Positions 1 to 64,000 of a stretch of DNA of 64,000 bases are shown piece by piece. The notes under the pieces were generated by a model. That model was not told the DNA's origin. It did not search any database and was given only the letters and a program-made list of their open reading frames with translations. Source of the DNA: Hyalangium gracile. GTDB lineage: Bacteria > Myxococcota > Myxococcia > Myxococcales > Myxococcaceae. The position numbers and the translations under genes are program-made. Where the stretch lies: assembly GCF_020103725.1 (NCBI RefSeq), contig NZ_JAHXBG010000012.1, forward strand, positions 62,001 through 126,000, written 5' to 3'. Each line of letters begins with the position of its first letter. Position 1 is the first letter of the stretch.

Positions 1-1696
1 TCTCGTAATTCTCCACGGACTGCCGGACCTTGGTCGCGTTGGGGTGATTGGGCGCCAGCTTCAGGAACTCGCGGTAGTGCCTGGCCGCCATGTCCCACTT
101 GGAGACGCCTGCATACGCGGCGCCCAGCACCATCTGGCACTCGGCCTTGTCCGGAGCCAGCTCCACGCACCGCAGGGCCCGGTTGAGCGCCGCATCATAC
201 TGCTTACCGCGCAGCGCCGTAGCGGCTTCGTTGTAGGCGAGCCGGGCCTCCTCCTCGGTGTCTTCCTGGGTCCGGGTGGGCGTCTTGTTCGGCGGTGGCG
301 TCGTCACCTTGACGGGCTCGGTCTTGGGCTGCGCCTTGCGAGCCTGCGCGATGGCGCCCATGAGCTTGTCGTACTCGGTGCCGGAGAACCGCGAGCCCTT
401 GGCGGGCCCGGCCAGGGACTCGGCCTCGTCGAGGTTCTTCGCCTCGAAGGCGGCCTGGGCCGCCTCCAGGGCCTTGGCGGCTTCCTGCTCGAGGGCGATC
501 TTGTCGGCGAGCTCCTCGCCCTCGGGCGGCAGCTTGCCGGCGAAGTTCTTCAGCTCGTCGGCGGCCCGCTCCAGCTTGCCCTCTTCGTAGGCCTTCCTGG
601 CGCTCTGGATGCGCGCCTTGCCCGCGTCCGCCACGGCGGTGTCCGGAGGCGCGCGGGGGGTGCCGGGGTCGGCCTCGGGAGGCTCGGGCTGCGCCGGCTC
701 GGGCGGCTTCTGGACCGGATCCTCCTGGGTGAGCTCGGGCGGCTTCTGCGGCTGCTCGGGCTGCTGGAAGGGGCCCACCTTGAGGAACCACGCGGCGCCG
801 GCGCCACCGCCCACCAGCAGCACGCCGAGCGCCAGCACCAGCGGCAGCTTCGAGCGGCCGGCCGAGCTCACCGAGCCCGCGGACTCGCCCGCGCCGACGA
901 AGCGCAGCTTCACGTGGCCCAGCTCGACGACGTCCCCGTTGCTGAGCGGCGCCTGGGCGTACGTCTCACCGTTGACGGTGAGCCCGTTGGCCGACTGCAT
1001 GTCGATGATCTTCCACTCGCCGTTGTCCTCGCGGACGACCTTGGCGTGGGTGCGCGACAGGGAGCGATGGTCGATGACGATGTCGTTGTCGTCGGTGCGA
1101 CCGATCTTCATCTCCGTGCGGATGCAGGCGTACTCCTGGCCCTTGAGCTCCGCGCTCACCACGACGAAGCGGGGAGCCTCCTCGGCCTCGAGCTCGACGA
1201 CCTTGCGGTTGCGGTTGCCCTCCACGTGCTCCATCTTGATGATGGCGGTGGAGTGACGGCGCTCGGCGGAGGCCGGCGCGGCCTCCTCCTCGACGGGGGC
1301 CTCCGTCTCCGTCTCCGGCTCGGAGTGGCCGTCCGCGTCGCCGGAGTCCTGAGGGGCGGGCGCGGGGGCGGGACGGGCGGCGGCGCGAGGGGCGGCGGCG
1401 ACGGCCGCGTCGCTCTGCAGCGCCAGATCGTAGTCACCGATCTGGATCAGATCGCCGTCCTTGACGGGCGACTGGCCGCTGATCCGCTCGCCGTTGATGC
1501 GAGTCCCATTGGAACTGCCCAGATCCTCCACCACGACATGCCCGTTCAGGCGCATGAGGCGAGCGTGGCGGCGGGACACGTTTCGTTCCGTCAGGCGGAT
1601 GGTGTTGCCTTCCTGACGGCCGATCGTGATCTCTTCGCGCACGAAGGGAACAACGGTCTTGCGCCCCTCGTCGTCTTCGATGATGAGCTTCAGCAC
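1..1696 (-). CDS. Tandem FHA-domain membrane protein with TPR-like C-terminus (partial, 3' end outside window)
   Basis: The frame is open from a GTG at 1696 to the window edge, about 565 codons, with no stop seen. Two forkhead-associated domains are visible: residues about 20-92 (GR at 26-27, SRRH at 41-44, SSNGT at 61-65) and about 193-267 (GR at 199-200, SRTH at 214-217, ANG at 236-238). FHA domains bind phosphothreonine peptides, so the protein probably works downstream of Ser/Thr kinases. An acidic Ala/Pro linker separates the FHA domains. One membrane helix follows at about 284-304, then a Pro/Glu-rich stretch and a helical TPR-like tail. The GTG start is chosen because FHA1 begins at once and no upstream ATG fits; its ribosome site is weak. 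The gene is divergent from the rhomboid gene at 1870, so the 173-base gap must hold both promoters. Confidence 0.85.
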   Translation of the reverse strand, partial: MLKLIIEDDEGRKTVVPFVREEITIGRQEGNTIRLTERNVSRRHARLMRLNGHVVVEDLGSSNGTRINGERISGQSPVKDGDLIQIGDYDLALQSDAAVAAAPRAAARPAPAPAPQDSGDADGHSEPETETEAPVEEEAAPASAERRHSTAIIKMEHVEGNRNRKVVELEAEEAPRFVVVSAELKGQEYACIRTEMKIGRTDDNDIVIDHRSLSRTHAKVVREDNGEWKIIDMQSANGLTVNGETYAQAPLSNGDVVELGHVKLRFVGAGESAGSVSSAGRSKLPLVLALGVLLVGGGAGAAWFLKVGPFQQPEQPQKPPELTQEDPVQKPPEPAQPEPPEADPGTPRAPPDTAVADAGKARIQSARKAYEEGKLERAADELKNFAGKLPPEGEELADKIALEQEAAKALEAAQAAFEAKNLDEAESLAGPAKGSRFSGTEYDKLMGAIAQARKAQPKTEPVKVTTPPPNKTPTRTQEDTEEEARLAYNEAATALRGKQYDAALNRALRCVELAPDKAECQMVLGAAYAGVSKWDMAARHYREFLKLAPNHPNATKVRQSVENYE

Positions 1697-28617: not shown

Positions 28618-28646
28618 CGAACTGGTCTACTTGTCATACCAGTTCG
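28618..28646 (+). repeat. Intergenic palindromic element, copy C1
   Basis: Arms CGAACTGGTCTA and CATACCAGTTCG around loop CTTGT (28630-28634); 10 of 12 arm bases pair. It is followed by GTACC, as is copy A. A second copy starts nine bases later in the same orientation. Confidence 0.9.
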
Positions 28647-28655
28647 GTACCAATC

Positions 28656-28684
28656 CGAACCGGTATGCTTGTCATACCAGTTCG
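28656..28684 (+). repeat. Intergenic palindromic element, copy C2
   Basis: Arms CGAACCGGTATG and CATACCAGTTCG around loop CTTGT (28668-28672); 11 of 12 arm bases pair. It is the tandem partner of copy C1. Confidence 0.9.
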
Positions 28685-28953
28685 CTACAAGTCCGCTGAC
28701 AGGGTGCCTCCCTGGCCAGGCCGGTGTCTTGGCTCAGGTGCCTCCCTCCAGGGTCCAGGACCTTCGGCCCACGTACCTGGTCGGCCCCGGGGCGGTCAGG
28801 CAGCAGGCTCTCGAGGGCCCTGGTCGCCCGTGACCCAGGCTGGGGAACGTGGCGCCGATTCTGGCCGCCCTGAAGGGGCTGCGGTTTAATCCGCGCCCTG
28901 GCGCGCCGCGAGGGCCCGGGGTGGGATCTGCCCGCGCGCACACGAGAGATTGA

Positions 28954-48119: not shown

Positions 48120-48587
48120 TCAGCGCTTCTTCGGCGACTTGCCCACACCGATCTTGCGGGCCACGCGCTTCACGGACTTCTTGGCCGCCGCGGCCACGCG
48201 CGACACGATCTTGCTCCCGCTGGCGGACTTCGGAGCGGCGGCAGGGGCCTGCCGGGGGCTCTTCCTGCCGGTGACGGCCTTCTTCGCCGCGGGTGCCTTC
48301 TTGGCCGCAGAGGCCTTCCTGGCCGCAGGTGTCTTCTTCGCCGCGGCGCGTCGGCCAGTTCCCGCGCCCTCCTTGGCTGCCGCCCTCCGCGCCGTCTTCT
48401 TCTTCTGGTAGCGCTGGATGGTCTCGGCGTGGGGCTGCCGGAAGCCGCTGGGCGCATCGGGCGGCGCGCTCTTCTGCTGGCCCAGCTTCTGTTTGTCCTC
48501 GTCGTTGCCGAGTCGCGGGCCGGAGCCCTGTACACCCAGCATCGGCTGTTGTTGATGGAAGGGATATTCGCTGTAGCTACGGCCCAT
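48120..48587 (-). CDS. Small basic protein with histone-H1-like Lys/Ala/Pro tail
   Basis: 155 residues from an ATG at 48587 with GGAGG just upstream; the open frame extends to 48692 but the ribosome site favours this start. The first 65 residues are polar and Gln/Pro-rich with no known domain. The rest is a lysine/alanine/proline tail with repeats such as AAKKTPAARKASAAKKAPAAKK, read as AAKKTPAARK, ASAAKKAPAAKK, and a second basic block near the end (RVAAAAKKSVKRVARKIG). This looks like the DNA-binding tail of bacterial H1-like proteins. It may bind DNA; no fold is visible. It is convergent with the cystathionine gene. Confidence 0.75.
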   Translation of the reverse strand: MGRSYSEYPFHQQQPMLGVQGSGPRLGNDEDKQKLGQQKSAPPDAPSGFRQPHAETIQRYQKKKTARRAAAKEGAGTGRRAAAKKTPAARKASAAKKAPAAKKAVTGRKSPRQAPAAAPKSASGSKIVSRVAAAAKKSVKRVARKIGVGKSPKKR

Positions 48588-60963: not shown

Positions 60964-61467
60964 ATGCTTGAGCCTCTCGCGCGGCCGCTGCACCTGGTAC
61001 TGGTGTCGCCGCAGATTCCCCCCAACACCGGCAACGTCGCCCGCCTGTGCGCGGTGACGGGCAGCCGGCTCATCCTCGTGGAGCCGCTCGGCTTCTCCAT
61101 CGCGGACCGGGACCTGAAGCGCGCCGGCCTGGACTACTGGGACAAGGTGTTCCTCAAGCTGTATCCCACCTATGCCTCCTACCTGGCGGACTACCCGGAG
61201 GCCCGGCGGTGGCTGTTCTCGGCCCGGGCGACTACATCCCTGTATGCCGCGCGGTTCGAGCCGGGGGATCACCTGGTGTTCGGCTCCGAGGTGACGGGGC
61301 TGCCGGCCGAGCTGATGGAGGGCGGATCCGGGCAGCCGGTGACCATCCCCATGCTCCCGGAGCGGCGCAGCCTCAACCTGTCCACCTCCGTGGGCATTGC
61401 CACCTACGAAGCATTGCGTCAGGTCCAGCTGGGGGAGGCGGCCAGGCAGCCGCCCCCGGCAAGTTGA
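60964..61467 (+). CDS. trmL: tRNA (cytidine(34)-2'-O)-methyltransferase TrmL
   Basis: 167 residues. It is a minimal SPOUT methyltransferase: PQIPPNTGNVARLCAVTGS at the N-terminus, FGSEVTGLP in the middle and the knot RRSLNLSTSVGIATYEALRQ near the end. TrmL methylates the wobble base of leucine tRNAs. Length is normal for the family. The last ten residues are a non-conserved Ala/Pro tail. It is followed 33 bases later by the hexad-repeat protein on the same strand. Confidence 0.92.
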   Translation: MLEPLARPLHLVLVSPQIPPNTGNVARLCAVTGSRLILVEPLGFSIADRDLKRAGLDYWDKVFLKLYPTYASYLADYPEARRWLFSARATTSLYAARFEPGDHLVFGSEVTGLPAELMEGGSGQPVTIPMLPERRSLNLSTSVGIATYEALRQVQLGEAARQPPPAS

Positions 61468-61500: not shown

Positions 61501-64000
61501 ATGTCTCCCTCTCTCGTCGCTGACGCCCTCTACTCCGCCCACAAGTCTCGCGCCACCGGGCAGCTCACGCTCCATGCGGGGGGGAGGCAGTCCCGGCTCT
61601 TCCTGCACGAGGGGAACCTGGTCGGCACGCAGCTGGGGTTCGGCTTCCAGAGCCCGGCGCAGGCGCTGCTGCTGAGCGGTCGGCTGAAGGTGGAGGCGCT
61701 GGACGCGCTCTGGGCTCGGGGTGGGGCGGGCAGGCCGGATGAGGACCTGCTCGAGGAGCTGGGCCTCGAGGAGGGCGCGGTGGCCGAGCTTCAGGTGCTC
61801 GCCCACGTGCGGCGGCTGAGCCAGCTGGCCGAGCGCTCCGCGTTCGAGCCGGGCGAGGTGGAGGAGATGTTCCGGCCCATTGCCGGCGCCCGGGTGATTC
61901 GGGCCGCGCTGGAGCCGGCGGTGGGGGAGGGGCGAGGGGCGAGGGTGTACCGCTGCGCGGATGTGGCGGCGTGCGAGCCGTGGCTCTCGAGCGAGGAGGA
62001 GCGGGCCTTGCTGGGGACGCTGGGGGCCTTCCGGCAGCCGGAGGCGCTGAAGCTGGCTCAGGAGGTGTTGCTGCAGCTGCTCGAGCGCGAGGGGCTCGTC
62101 GAGTCCCTGAGCGTCGAGGAGTGGGAGGCGCGAGAGCGGGCACGGATCGAGGAGGAGGCGCGGCTGGCGGAGGAGGCGCGGCTGGCGGAGGAGCGTCGGC
62201 TGGCCGAAGAGGCCCGGCTGGCGGAAGAGGCTCGACTGGCGGAAGAGGCTCGACTGGCCGAGGAGCGACGGCTGGCGGAAGAGGCGCGCTTGGCGGAAGA
62301 AGCGCGTCTGGCCGAAGAGGCGCGGCTGGCGGAAGAGGCGCGGCTGGCGGAAGAGGCGCGCAAGGCTGAAGAGGCTCGGCTCGCAGAAGAGCTTCGTCTG
62401 GCCGAGGAGCGTCGGCTGGCGGAAGAGGCGCGCAAGGCTGAAGAGGCTCGTCTGGCCGAGGAGCGTCGGCTGGCGGAAGAGGCTCGGCTGGCCGAAGAGG
62501 CCCGACTGGCTGAAGAGGCCCGACTGGCTGAAGAGGCTCGGCTCGCAGAAGAGCGTCGTTTGGCGGAAGAGGCCCGGCTCGCGGAAGAGGCGCGATTGGC
62601 CGAGGAGGCGCGGCTCGCCGAAGAGGCTCGGCTCGCGGAGGAGAAGCGCCTGGCAGAGGAGGCTCGGCTCGCCGAAGAGGCTCGGCTCGCGGAGGAGAAG
62701 CGCCTGGCGGAGGAGAAGCGCCTGGCGGAGGAGGCGCGGCTGGCGGAAGAGCGTCGTCTCGCGGAAGAGGCGCGATTGGCTGAAGAGCGCCGGCTGGCCG
62801 AAGAAGCTCGTCTGGCGGAGGAGGCGCGGCTCGCTGAAGAGCGGCGCTTGGCCGAAGAGGCCCGGCTGGCGGAAGAGGCTCGGCTGGCGGAAGAGGCGCG
62901 GCTGGCCGAAGAGCGTCGTTTGGCGGAAGAGGCTCGTCTGGCGGAGGAGGCTCGTCGCGCTGAAGAGGCCCGTCTGGAGGAAGAACGCCGGCTGGCGGAA
63001 GAGGCTCGACTGGCCGAAGAGGCGCGGATTGCTGAAGAGAAGCGTCTGGCCGAGGAGGCTCGCCTAGCTGAAGAAGCGCGGCTGGCGGAAGAGGCTCGGC
63101 TCGCGGAGGAGCGTCGTCTGGCCGAAGAGGCCCGGCTGGCGGAAGAGGCTCGCCTCGCGGAGGAGCAGCGTCTGGCTGAAGAGGCCCGACTGGCCGAAGA
63201 GGCCCGCCTGGCTGAAGAGGCCCGATTGGCTGAAGAGGCCCGCCTGGCTGAAGAGGCCCGGTTGGCCGAGGAGCGTCGTCTGGCCGAAGAGGCCCGGCTG
63301 GCTGAAGAGGCCCGTCGAGCCGAGGAGGAGCGTCTGGCTGAAGAGGCCCGGCAGGCTGAAGCGGCTCGCCTGGCTGAGGAGGCGCGACTCGCAGAAGAGA
63401 GGCGCCTTGCGGAAGAAGCGCGTCTGGCCGAGGAGGCTCGTCGCGCTGAAGAGGAGCGCCTGGCTGAAGAGGCCCGTCAAGCCGAGGAGGCCCGTCTCGC
63501 GGAGGAGCGAAGGCTGGCTGAAGAGGCACGACTGGCCGAGGAGGCTCGGCTCGCCGAAGAGGCACGACTGGCCGAGGAGGCTCGGCTAGCTGAGGAGGCC
63601 CGGCTAGCTGAGGAAGCGCGTCGGGCGGAAGAGGTTCGCCTCGAGGAAGAACGTCGGCTGGCGGAAGAGGCTCGGCTGGCTGAAGAGGCTCGCCTCGCGG
63701 AGGAAGCGCGTCGGGCTGAAGAAGCGCGTCTGGCGGAAGAGGCTCGGCTGGCCGAAGAGGCTCGACTGGCTGAAGAGGCCCGGCAGGAGGAAGAGCGTCG
63801 TCTGGCGGAAGAGGCTCGACTGGCTGAAGAAGCGCGGCTGGCCGAAGAGGCGCGGCTGGCCGAAGAGGCTCGCCAGGCCGAGGAGAAGCGTCTGGCGGAA
63901 GAGGCGCGTCAGGCGGAAGAGGCTCGGTTGGCCGAAGAGGCCCGACTGGCAGAAGAGGCTCGACTGGCTGAAGAGGCCCGGCAGGAGGAAGAGCGTCGTC
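61501..64000 (+). CDS. Very long RLAEEA hexad-repeat protein with DUF4388-like N-terminus (partial, 3' end outside window)
   Basis: The frame is open from an ATG at 61501 to the window edge, at least 833 codons. Residues about 1-75 resemble a DUF4388/PATAN-type domain (ALYSAHKSRATGQLTLHAGG, RLFLHEGNLVGTQLG). Residues about 80-214 are a helical region. From residue 215 on, nearly every six residues read R-L-A-E-E-A, about 103 units by 64000. Variant units carry ER, EK, RK, RQ or RR. It should form a very long, highly charged helix. Function unknown; TolA-like and other spacer proteins have similar but shorter repeats. It follows trmL, but there is no sign that it is functionally linked. Confidence 0.85.
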   Translation, partial: MSPSLVADALYSAHKSRATGQLTLHAGGRQSRLFLHEGNLVGTQLGFGFQSPAQALLLSGRLKVEALDALWARGGAGRPDEDLLEELGLEEGAVAELQVLAHVRRLSQLAERSAFEPGEVEEMFRPIAGARVIRAALEPAVGEGRGARVYRCADVAACEPWLSSEEERALLGTLGAFRQPEALKLAQEVLLQLLEREGLVESLSVEEWEARERARIEEEARLAEEARLAEERRLAEEARLAEEARLAEEARLAEERRLAEEARLAEEARLAEEARLAEEARLAEEARKAEEARLAEELRLAEERRLAEEARKAEEARLAEERRLAEEARLAEEARLAEEARLAEEARLAEERRLAEEARLAEEARLAEEARLAEEARLAEEKRLAEEARLAEEARLAEEKRLAEEKRLAEEARLAEERRLAEEARLAEERRLAEEARLAEEARLAEERRLAEEARLAEEARLAEEARLAEERRLAEEARLAEEARRAEEARLEEERRLAEEARLAEEARIAEEKRLAEEARLAEEARLAEEARLAEERRLAEEARLAEEARLAEEQRLAEEARLAEEARLAEEARLAEEARLAEEARLAEERRLAEEARLAEEARRAEEERLAEEARQAEAARLAEEARLAEERRLAEEARLAEEARRAEEERLAEEARQAEEARLAEERRLAEEARLAEEARLAEEARLAEEARLAEEARLAEEARRAEEVRLEEERRLAEEARLAEEARLAEEARRAEEARLAEEARLAEEARLAEEARQEEERRLAEEARLAEEARLAEEARLAEEARQAEEKRLAEEARQAEEARLAEEARLAEEARLAEEARQEEERR
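62143..64000 (+). repeat. 18-base-period tandem repeat encoding RLAEEA hexads
   Basis: About 103 units of 18 bases without a phase break inside the window. The DNA units differ mainly at third codon positions (GAAGAG, GAGGAG and similar), so the array is old or under selection for protein sequence. The opposite strand also stays open for 2 kb, as an artefact of the composition. Confidence 0.9.

Follow-up and report, generated by a model that had tools for sequence, protein, structure and literature searches.

The window analysed here is a 64,000-nucleotide stretch of Hyalangium gracile DNA, corresponding to positions 62001-126000 of contig C12 in a draft assembly of 11.7 Mb and 81 contigs. 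A gene for a very long repeat protein starts in the window close to its right-hand end, and less than half of the protein is encoded there. Following the contig across the window end, with no N letters in the fetched stretch, we met neither a stop codon nor a frameshift at that point, and the reading frame continued to a total of 2197 aa. The features are listed below (all on the plus strand; window positions unless stated otherwise).

60964..61467, plus strand: upstream neighbour, which we take to be a TrmL-like RNA methyltransferase (open-reading-frame list; synteny)
61501..64000, plus strand: part of the gene inside the window, 833 aa, frame open to the window end (open-reading-frame list)
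C12:123501-130094, plus strand: whole gene, 2197 aa, stop at C12:130094
61501..62142, plus strand: N-terminal DUF4388-like domain, residues 1-214 (Pfam PF14332 below cut-off; orthologue matches)
62143..64000, plus strand: hexad array R-x-x-E-E-x, residues 215-833 in the window, continuing outside to residue 1197
Residues ~1198-1967, outside the window, plus strand: degenerate helix and proline/acidic linker, containing the conserved RRQRLLRRAMENMG motif
Residues ~1968-2034, outside the window, plus strand: J domain (Pfam profile match)
Up to residue ~2171, outside the window, plus strand: TPR (Pfam profile match)

A DUF4388-like head had been proposed for the N-terminus, and the comparison with orthologues favours one: the protein's own N-domain scores 20.1 bits with PF14332 (E 7e-4), below the cut-off of 25, and DUF4388 matches with E up to 1 were obtained for each of the 14 aligned close orthologues, the best at 1.5e-4. 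GlutR_N also matched the N-domain of one of these 14 at 1.7e-4. Judged by these profile matches the N-terminus is probably a diverged DUF4388 domain, a fold assigned from sequence because AlphaFold, given 14 N-domain sequences, reached a pLDDT of only 42, too low for the model to enter a fold search. At the C-terminus the J domain (PF00226) scores 44.5 bits against a cut-off of 27.8 and TPR_2 41 bits against 27. The HPD tripeptide is intact and invariant in 9 of 9 aligned C-termini, and no DnaJ zinc finger was matched in the stretches scanned. AlphaFold modelled the H. versicolor C-terminus with a mean pLDDT of 78 (pTM 0.42; J and TPR stretches mostly 89-98), and a Foldseek search of the PDB with this model gave 25 matches at E <= 0.001 among those listed, nearly all of them TPR proteins or designs based on them. 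No J-domain structure was present among the best 50 rows, so the J domain is likewise called from its sequence. The linker between array and J domain contains conserved islands, the clearest being DLWRIV...SFEAAL.QVD.HLESLV and RRQRLLRRAMENMG.

The highest 19-residue hydropathy value is 0.93 and no transmembrane stretch was found, which points to a probably cytoplasmic protein. Of the two compartments originally considered, the periplasm is disfavoured by this value and by the J and TPR domains at the C-terminus. A minus-strand frame runs through the array as well (window 61565-64000, 811 aa; 1359 aa in the contig) and is taken as a by-product of the repeat.

The combination of domains resembles several known systems in part. 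With DUF4388 and PATAN proteins, which we assume to carry one and the same domain and which include cyanobacterial phototaxis response regulators and the REC-DUF4388 neighbour of our gene, the N-domain has its sub-threshold DUF4388 match in common. Unlike those response regulators the protein has no receiver domain, and its DUF4388 domain is joined to J and TPR domains. It shares with the Hsp70 co-chaperones that we take to be named class C J-domain proteins a J domain with HPD, TPRs and no matched DnaJ zinc finger; unlike in these, the J domain comes behind a giant helix and precedes the TPRs. By description it can also be likened to SgmX and FrzS, polar TPR/coiled-coil scaffolds of Myxococcus xanthus, as a multi-domain protein that contains TPRs or long helices. 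SgmX is found together with two PATAN proteins of M. xanthus, MXAN_3211 and MXAN_4965 (PMC11580455, in excerpt).

The gene order is well conserved. We found a TrmL-like match upstream in 32 of 35 loci, and in 33 of the 35 loci with a C-terminus found a REC-DUF4388-TPR gene follows 26-567 bp past the match end (H. versicolor and Citreicoccus are counted twice; loci L076 and L078 have no such gene). The H. gracile copy of this downstream gene, L003:7248-10139, lies outside the window and encodes REC-DUF4388, a proline-rich middle and C-terminal TPRs. Elsewhere in the window, two near-identical 38-bp direct copies at 28618-28695, by eye seemingly internally palindromic and AT-richer than their surroundings, are possibly operators, and a tandem repeat of 18 bp in 3.8 copies is located at 48276-48344.

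The hexad array and its variation among orthologues

Tandem Repeats Finder (TRF) gave the array a score of 1432 (period 18, 102 copies), compared to 114 for the next best array in the window. The whole array comprises 163 hexads R-x-x-E-E-x (residues 215-1197) in two registers: the first contains 129 units and ends at residue 988, followed by a five-residue unit (989-993) and 34 further units to residue 1197. The motif RxxEExR was counted 165 times over the whole protein. The window holds 103 complete hexads in a single register, as had been noted, the break at 989-993 lying outside it; the stated minimum of 100 RLAEEA units holds for the pattern (102 of 103 fit R-x-x-E-E-x), not for the exact hexamer (68 of 103). 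All 163 hexads have R at position 1 and E at position 4; L occurs at position 2 in 126 of them, A at position 3 in 156, E at position 5 in 159 and A at position 6 in 123. Residues 215-1203 contain no Pro or Gly, and 45% of them are uncharged, mostly Ala and Leu. The 84 RLAEEA units of the first register are encoded by 51 different 18-mers, and among the 163 hexads pS is 0.65 and pN 0.11 (pN/pS 0.17). These two results rule out chance or a low-complexity DNA effect and confirm the array as a real protein pattern; at the sequence level they show constraint on its amino acids. When the H. gracile genome was searched with a 120-residue piece of the array, it yielded only the gene itself and two weak hits at other places (25% and 40% identity).

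One match to the N-domain was found in 31 of 35 genomes of the same family, H. gracile included, and a match in 43 of 59 genomes overall. The bacteria concerned are soil predators akin to Myxococcus; the nearest named relative among the loci compared is Hyalangium versicolor, with 90% identity in the N-domain. Eighteen of the 31 family genes could be read full-length; 12 are cut by a contig end shortly behind the N-domain and one (G016) within it, as would be expected of an assembly-breaking repeat. All 18 full-length genes, our own included, carry both the N-domain and the last 215 residues, i.e. most of the J domain and the TPRs (tblastn). Long arrays were confirmed in six genomes of 1-3 contigs (113 hexads in G004, 102 in G005, 105 in G013, 83 in G017, 141 in G028 and 60 in G034), the array of P. 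fallax has at least 207 hexads and meets the contig end, and two family members have one-hexad genes with frames of 923 and 975 aa. The comparison of repeat numbers, made between species with one genome each, thus gave a range from 1 to at least 207 hexads, which speaks against the suggested ruler of set length. In a tree of 24 sequences, hexad numbers are 60-165 throughout the two main groups (19 rows; support 83/87 and 82/88); five further rows, with 1, 1, 18, 32 and 77 hexads, sit on long branches and their place is unsure.

The arrays of M. xanthus AM003 and Myxococcus sp. CA023 comprise 104 and 111 hexads, and the DNA identity of the two genes is 97% in the 200 codons before the array compared to 81% within it. 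In 6 of 6 species pairs the array was less similar (0.73-0.86) than the preceding 200 codons (0.87-0.97). The 99 gaps in the six pair alignments are all multiples of 3, and only 14 of them are multiples of 18. As far as the sequences compared show, copy number and DNA letters of the array change fast between species and the amino-acid pattern is kept. In Corallococcus sp. AS-1-6 (L062), the N and C parts lie in different frames, the shift being located within the hexad array and due either to a sequencing error or to a real break.

Codon usage in the array

The array has a GC3 of 0.65 compared to 0.93 in nine neighbouring genes, and uses GAA (42% vs 4%), GCT (33% vs 4%) and CGT (30% vs 6%) far more often; for 35 window genes, picked for GC3 > 0.85 and hence biased upward, GC3 was 0.92 and the GAA share 5%. 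In 23 of 23 arrays GC3 was lower and the GAA share higher than in both flanks of the same gene (excluded from this set were both one-hexad genes, L062 with its broken frame and all genes truncated behind the N-domain). Ala codons ending in T or A were raised in 22 of the 23 arrays relative to the N flank (all but G004) and in 21 relative to the C flank (all but G004 and G034). Uniform C-to-T mutation is disfavoured as the cause, CTT not being raised (0.02 in both).

GAGGAG accounts for 37 of 165 Glu pairs in the hexads of the array, compared to 65 of 78 in window genes. Followed by G it creates AGGAGG, the presumed ribosome-binding consensus. With the 23 arrays pooled, and units therefore not independent, GAGGAG was clearly rarer before G (391 of 2227 cases) than before another base (134 of 392); the corresponding numbers for window genes are 20 of 31 and 45 of 47. 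Of the 18 arrays that have five or more non-G units, 12 agree with AGGAGG avoidance and six disagree (G005, Citreicoccus, G028, G017, G014 and M. qinghaiensis). Because GAGGAG before non-G is still far below background in the arrays, avoidance of AGGAGG is at most a partial contributor to the underuse. Longer arrays did not have a lower GAGGAG share (Spearman -0.12, p 0.60). One array, L050 (G024), avoids GAGGAG mainly via GAGGAA instead of the usual GAAGAG, its GAGGAG share being 0.10 vs 0.25 expected with the two codons independent.

Exact repeats of up to 74 nt occur within the array, and the ten listed all sit at whole-hexad offsets, which demonstrates block duplication. Compared to recodings with the codons of neighbouring genes, the gene has 231 exact repeats of >= 30 nt (recodings: mean 203, SD 43) and a longest repeat of 74 (recodings 48); it lies below the recodings only in 24-nt repeats (443 vs 569, SD 67) and in unit-to-unit identity (0.743 vs 0.796). 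Since repeats of >= 30 nt are no fewer than in the recodings, protection against recombination is only one of several readings of the codon shift, beside tRNA demand and translation speed. A tendency to keep identical units apart was looked for and not found: the same-codon share at lag 1 exceeded that of far pairs in 16 of 23 arrays, was lower in six and equal in one (0.34 vs 0.33 in our array). The excerpts of the literature matches listed gave no natural precedent for codon scrambling, which is no proof of absence.

Helix type

The original prediction described a rigid lone helix without the hydrophobic seam of a heptad coiled coil. The mean hydrophobic moment (periods 3.4-3.8) is 0.047 in the first part of the array (z -5.1 against composition shuffles), 0.044 in the second (z -2.2) and 0.040-0.058 in seven further arrays, all of them below their shuffles (z -1.4 to -8.8), compared to 0.121 and 0.117 (z +3.9 and +3.5) for SMC coils of the same genome. 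The designed repeats AEEEKRK and AEEAKKA gave 0.057 (z +4.3) and 0.129 (z +10.7); single helices are thus set apart by the level of the moment rather than by z, AEEEKRK itself lying above its shuffles. We counted 0.0 hydrophobic networks per 100 residues in the array vs 4.4 and 8.8 in SMC, using spacings as quoted in an excerpt of PMC5812594; this count ignores Ala, so that AEEAKKA also scores 0.0, and together with the z of AEEEKRK this means that seam measures lack specificity for single helices. The best hydrophobic fraction at positions a and d is 0.24 (SMC 0.56 and 0.59). The predicted lack of a heptad seam is upheld by these numbers, and period six means that no side chain stays on one face.

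An ordinary parallel heptad coiled-coil dimer, which the E-rich helical sequence might suggest, is very unlikely in view of this a/d fraction and of a moment of 0.047 where SMC has 0.12. A COILS-type score of ~1.5 could be cited in its favour, although it was rejected as non-discriminating, two designed single helices scoring higher (2.2-2.6). Still more improbable, to the point of being hardly credible, is an alpha/beta coiled coil with beta-layers built from inserted hexads or nonads. Six-residue insertions are indeed one of the two kinds giving such layers (PMC4786415, as excerpted), but the beta-layer units IENKAD and MATKDD in that source sat between heptad GCN4 adaptors, whereas the array shows no heptad flank and its units should be strong helix formers.

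Charge networks are frequent, with 59 per 100 residues in the array, 6 and 7 in SMC and 90 in the single alpha-helix (SAH) of myosin-10. The predicted spacing of Arg to Glu at i+3 and i+4 is present: R/K to E pairs per residue amount to 0.18 at +3 and 0.20 at +4, and E to R/K pairs to 0.19 at +3 and only 0.02 at +4 (AEEEKRK, in the same order: 0.27, 0.40, 0.43 and 0.29). Like the SAH or ER-K helices of myosin-6, myosin-10, caldesmon and the designed AEEEKRK, the array is long, free of Pro and Gly, rich in R and E and without a hydrophobic seam, it has opposite charges at i,i+3/i+4, and it would form a spacer between domains. It differs from them in its strict hexad period, in the Leu and two Ala of each unit, in its charge (55% vs 69-86% in the controls; myosin-10 0.69, AEEEKRK 0.86) and in its length of 989 residues, compared to the 40 to ~200 typical of SAHs in the available part of PMC5347031. 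Charged residues, Asn and Gln make up 0.58 of the array, where about 80% is given as the SAH criterion (PMC5812594, in excerpt). According to excerpts of PMC5347031, the Ala-rich AEEAKKA, with a charged fraction of 0.57, apparently dimerised, and Arg-rich repeats aggregated or oligomerised. Because of this case and of a charge content under that of the SAH controls, we do not file the array as an SAH, although by its sequence it would work like one. The lone helix of the original prediction fits an uninterrupted, helix-favouring array without heptad seam and is weakened by a charge content (0.55) below that of characterised SAHs. A search of the PDB with a 220-residue stretch gave no sequence relative at E 0.001, a weak test with a low-complexity query.

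The attribute 'rigid' finds no support. Residues 215-1203 have a contour length of ~148 nm at 0.15 nm per residue, about ten times the published persistence length of ~15 nm (PMC5347031, in excerpt), which for a worm-like chain gives ~63 nm end to end; with 148 nm along the chain and ~63 nm between the ends, the helix would be a tether and not a ruler.

The helices could also associate sideways into bundles or a condensate. Eighteen residues correspond to five turns, so the hexad geometry would create three equivalent faces on which a Leu-Ala-Ala patch alternates with Arg/Glu; the uncharged 45% and the association of AEEAKKA and Arg-rich repeats (PMC5347031, as excerpted) point the same way. 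AEEAKKA, however, owes its moment of 0.129 to one-sided Ala, and the array stays at 0.047, far below its shuffles. The lack of a PDB relative of the low-complexity stretch also counts against association, though it says little. Taken together we regard sideways association as unlikely.

Origin of the insertion and possible role

The distant set comprises twelve loci from other families: nine scanned first, L070 and L072 besides, and as the twelfth L077, which is a different DUF4388 protein. DUF4388 was over the cut-off in 9 of 9 scanned loci and the J domain in 8 of 9, the exception (L071) being cut by a contig end. By eye, all eight J-bearing relatives have the HPD and none has a hexad array between DUF4388 and J; six of these eight have the same downstream neighbour as the family. 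L070, with DUF4388 over the cut-off and no J match at E 0.001 in its 762-aa frame, may be another kind of protein. Because the eight relatives have DUF4388, linker and J without the array, the array is, on this comparison, a lineage-specific insertion, and the ancestral form was probably DUF4388-linker-J-TPR. A further locus from another family carries a TrmL-like gene directly upstream:

G035:C33, bases 2-1636, minus strand: L072/L096, syntenic DUF4388 gene with a 13-residue repeat, running off the contig

Its DUF4388 domain (51.5 bits, over the cut-off) is followed by a helical stretch that ends in an E/R/A repeat of 13 residues (self-identity 0.66 at lag 13 over the last 80 residues) with 0.0 hydrophobic networks in the last 150 residues and a moment no different from shuffles. 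No J match was found at E 0.001, the gene being cut by the contig end. Helix insertion seems to have occurred at the same site at least twice, the second case resting on this one cut gene.

The array may be a tolerated, almost neutral expansion that separates two functional heads, with selection removing only those units that would break the helix or its translation. The span from 1 to at least 207 hexads would agree with this, as would the array-less relatives, whose heads are the same and whose downstream neighbour agrees in 6 of 8. We nevertheless hold it to be unlikely, given the pN/pS of 0.17 between hexads, the count of >= 60 hexads throughout both main tree groups (19 rows), the codon shift in 23 of 23 arrays and a second helical repeat, with another unit, that L072 from a different family carries at this site.

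Our preferred reading, to which we assign a probability of roughly one half, is a single-copy, probably cytoplasmic J-domain adaptor with an inserted, expandable and mostly monomeric helix as semi-flexible tether. It draws on what the sequences display, namely the architecture, synteny, intact HPD, lack of a heptad seam, amino-acid constraint and fast turnover of array DNA. The DUF4388 (PATAN-like) head would bind a signalling or polar partner, and the C-terminal J domain and TPRs would bind clients and, given the HPD, recruit an Hsp70. Between the heads, ~165 hexads, helical and mostly monomeric in the cell, would act as the expandable tether: as each unit turns the side chains by ~240 degrees no hydrophobic stripe would arise, and any number of units could be added with no coiled-coil register arising or being disrupted. 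The Hsp70 proteins of M. xanthus number 15 (PMC8265645, in excerpt), and the presumed target of cyanobacterial PATAN regulators is the type IV pilus (PMC7690835, in excerpt). Searches for a partner, a phenotype or an M. xanthus locus tag of the orthologue yielded none; in the excerpts of the literature matches listed, DUF4388 had one unrelated mention and RLAEEA led to oomycete nuclear signals.

A bolder form of this adaptor reading, which we put forward tentatively and hold to be unlikely in full, is a natural protein-polymer tether. Its strict hexad would have been selected as register-free, so that 60-200 units can lengthen without forming a coiled coil, and the J-TPR head would be placed tens of nm from the DUF4388 head. 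Helices would have been inserted at least twice with different units, and a natural 'codon scrambling' would have been favoured by selection as a guard against recombination between repeats and against internal AGGAGG ribosome-binding motifs, of which there would otherwise be well over a hundred.

If the array forms one helix, it would be about five times longer than the typical single-helix range (PMC5347031, as excerpted) and would reveal a rule by which nature builds long helices free of coiled-coil register. The orthologues of this one syntenic gene, with anything from 1 to over 200 units, would offer a ready series on tether function, and the codon pattern may serve as a natural case for the stability and clean translation of highly repetitive genes.
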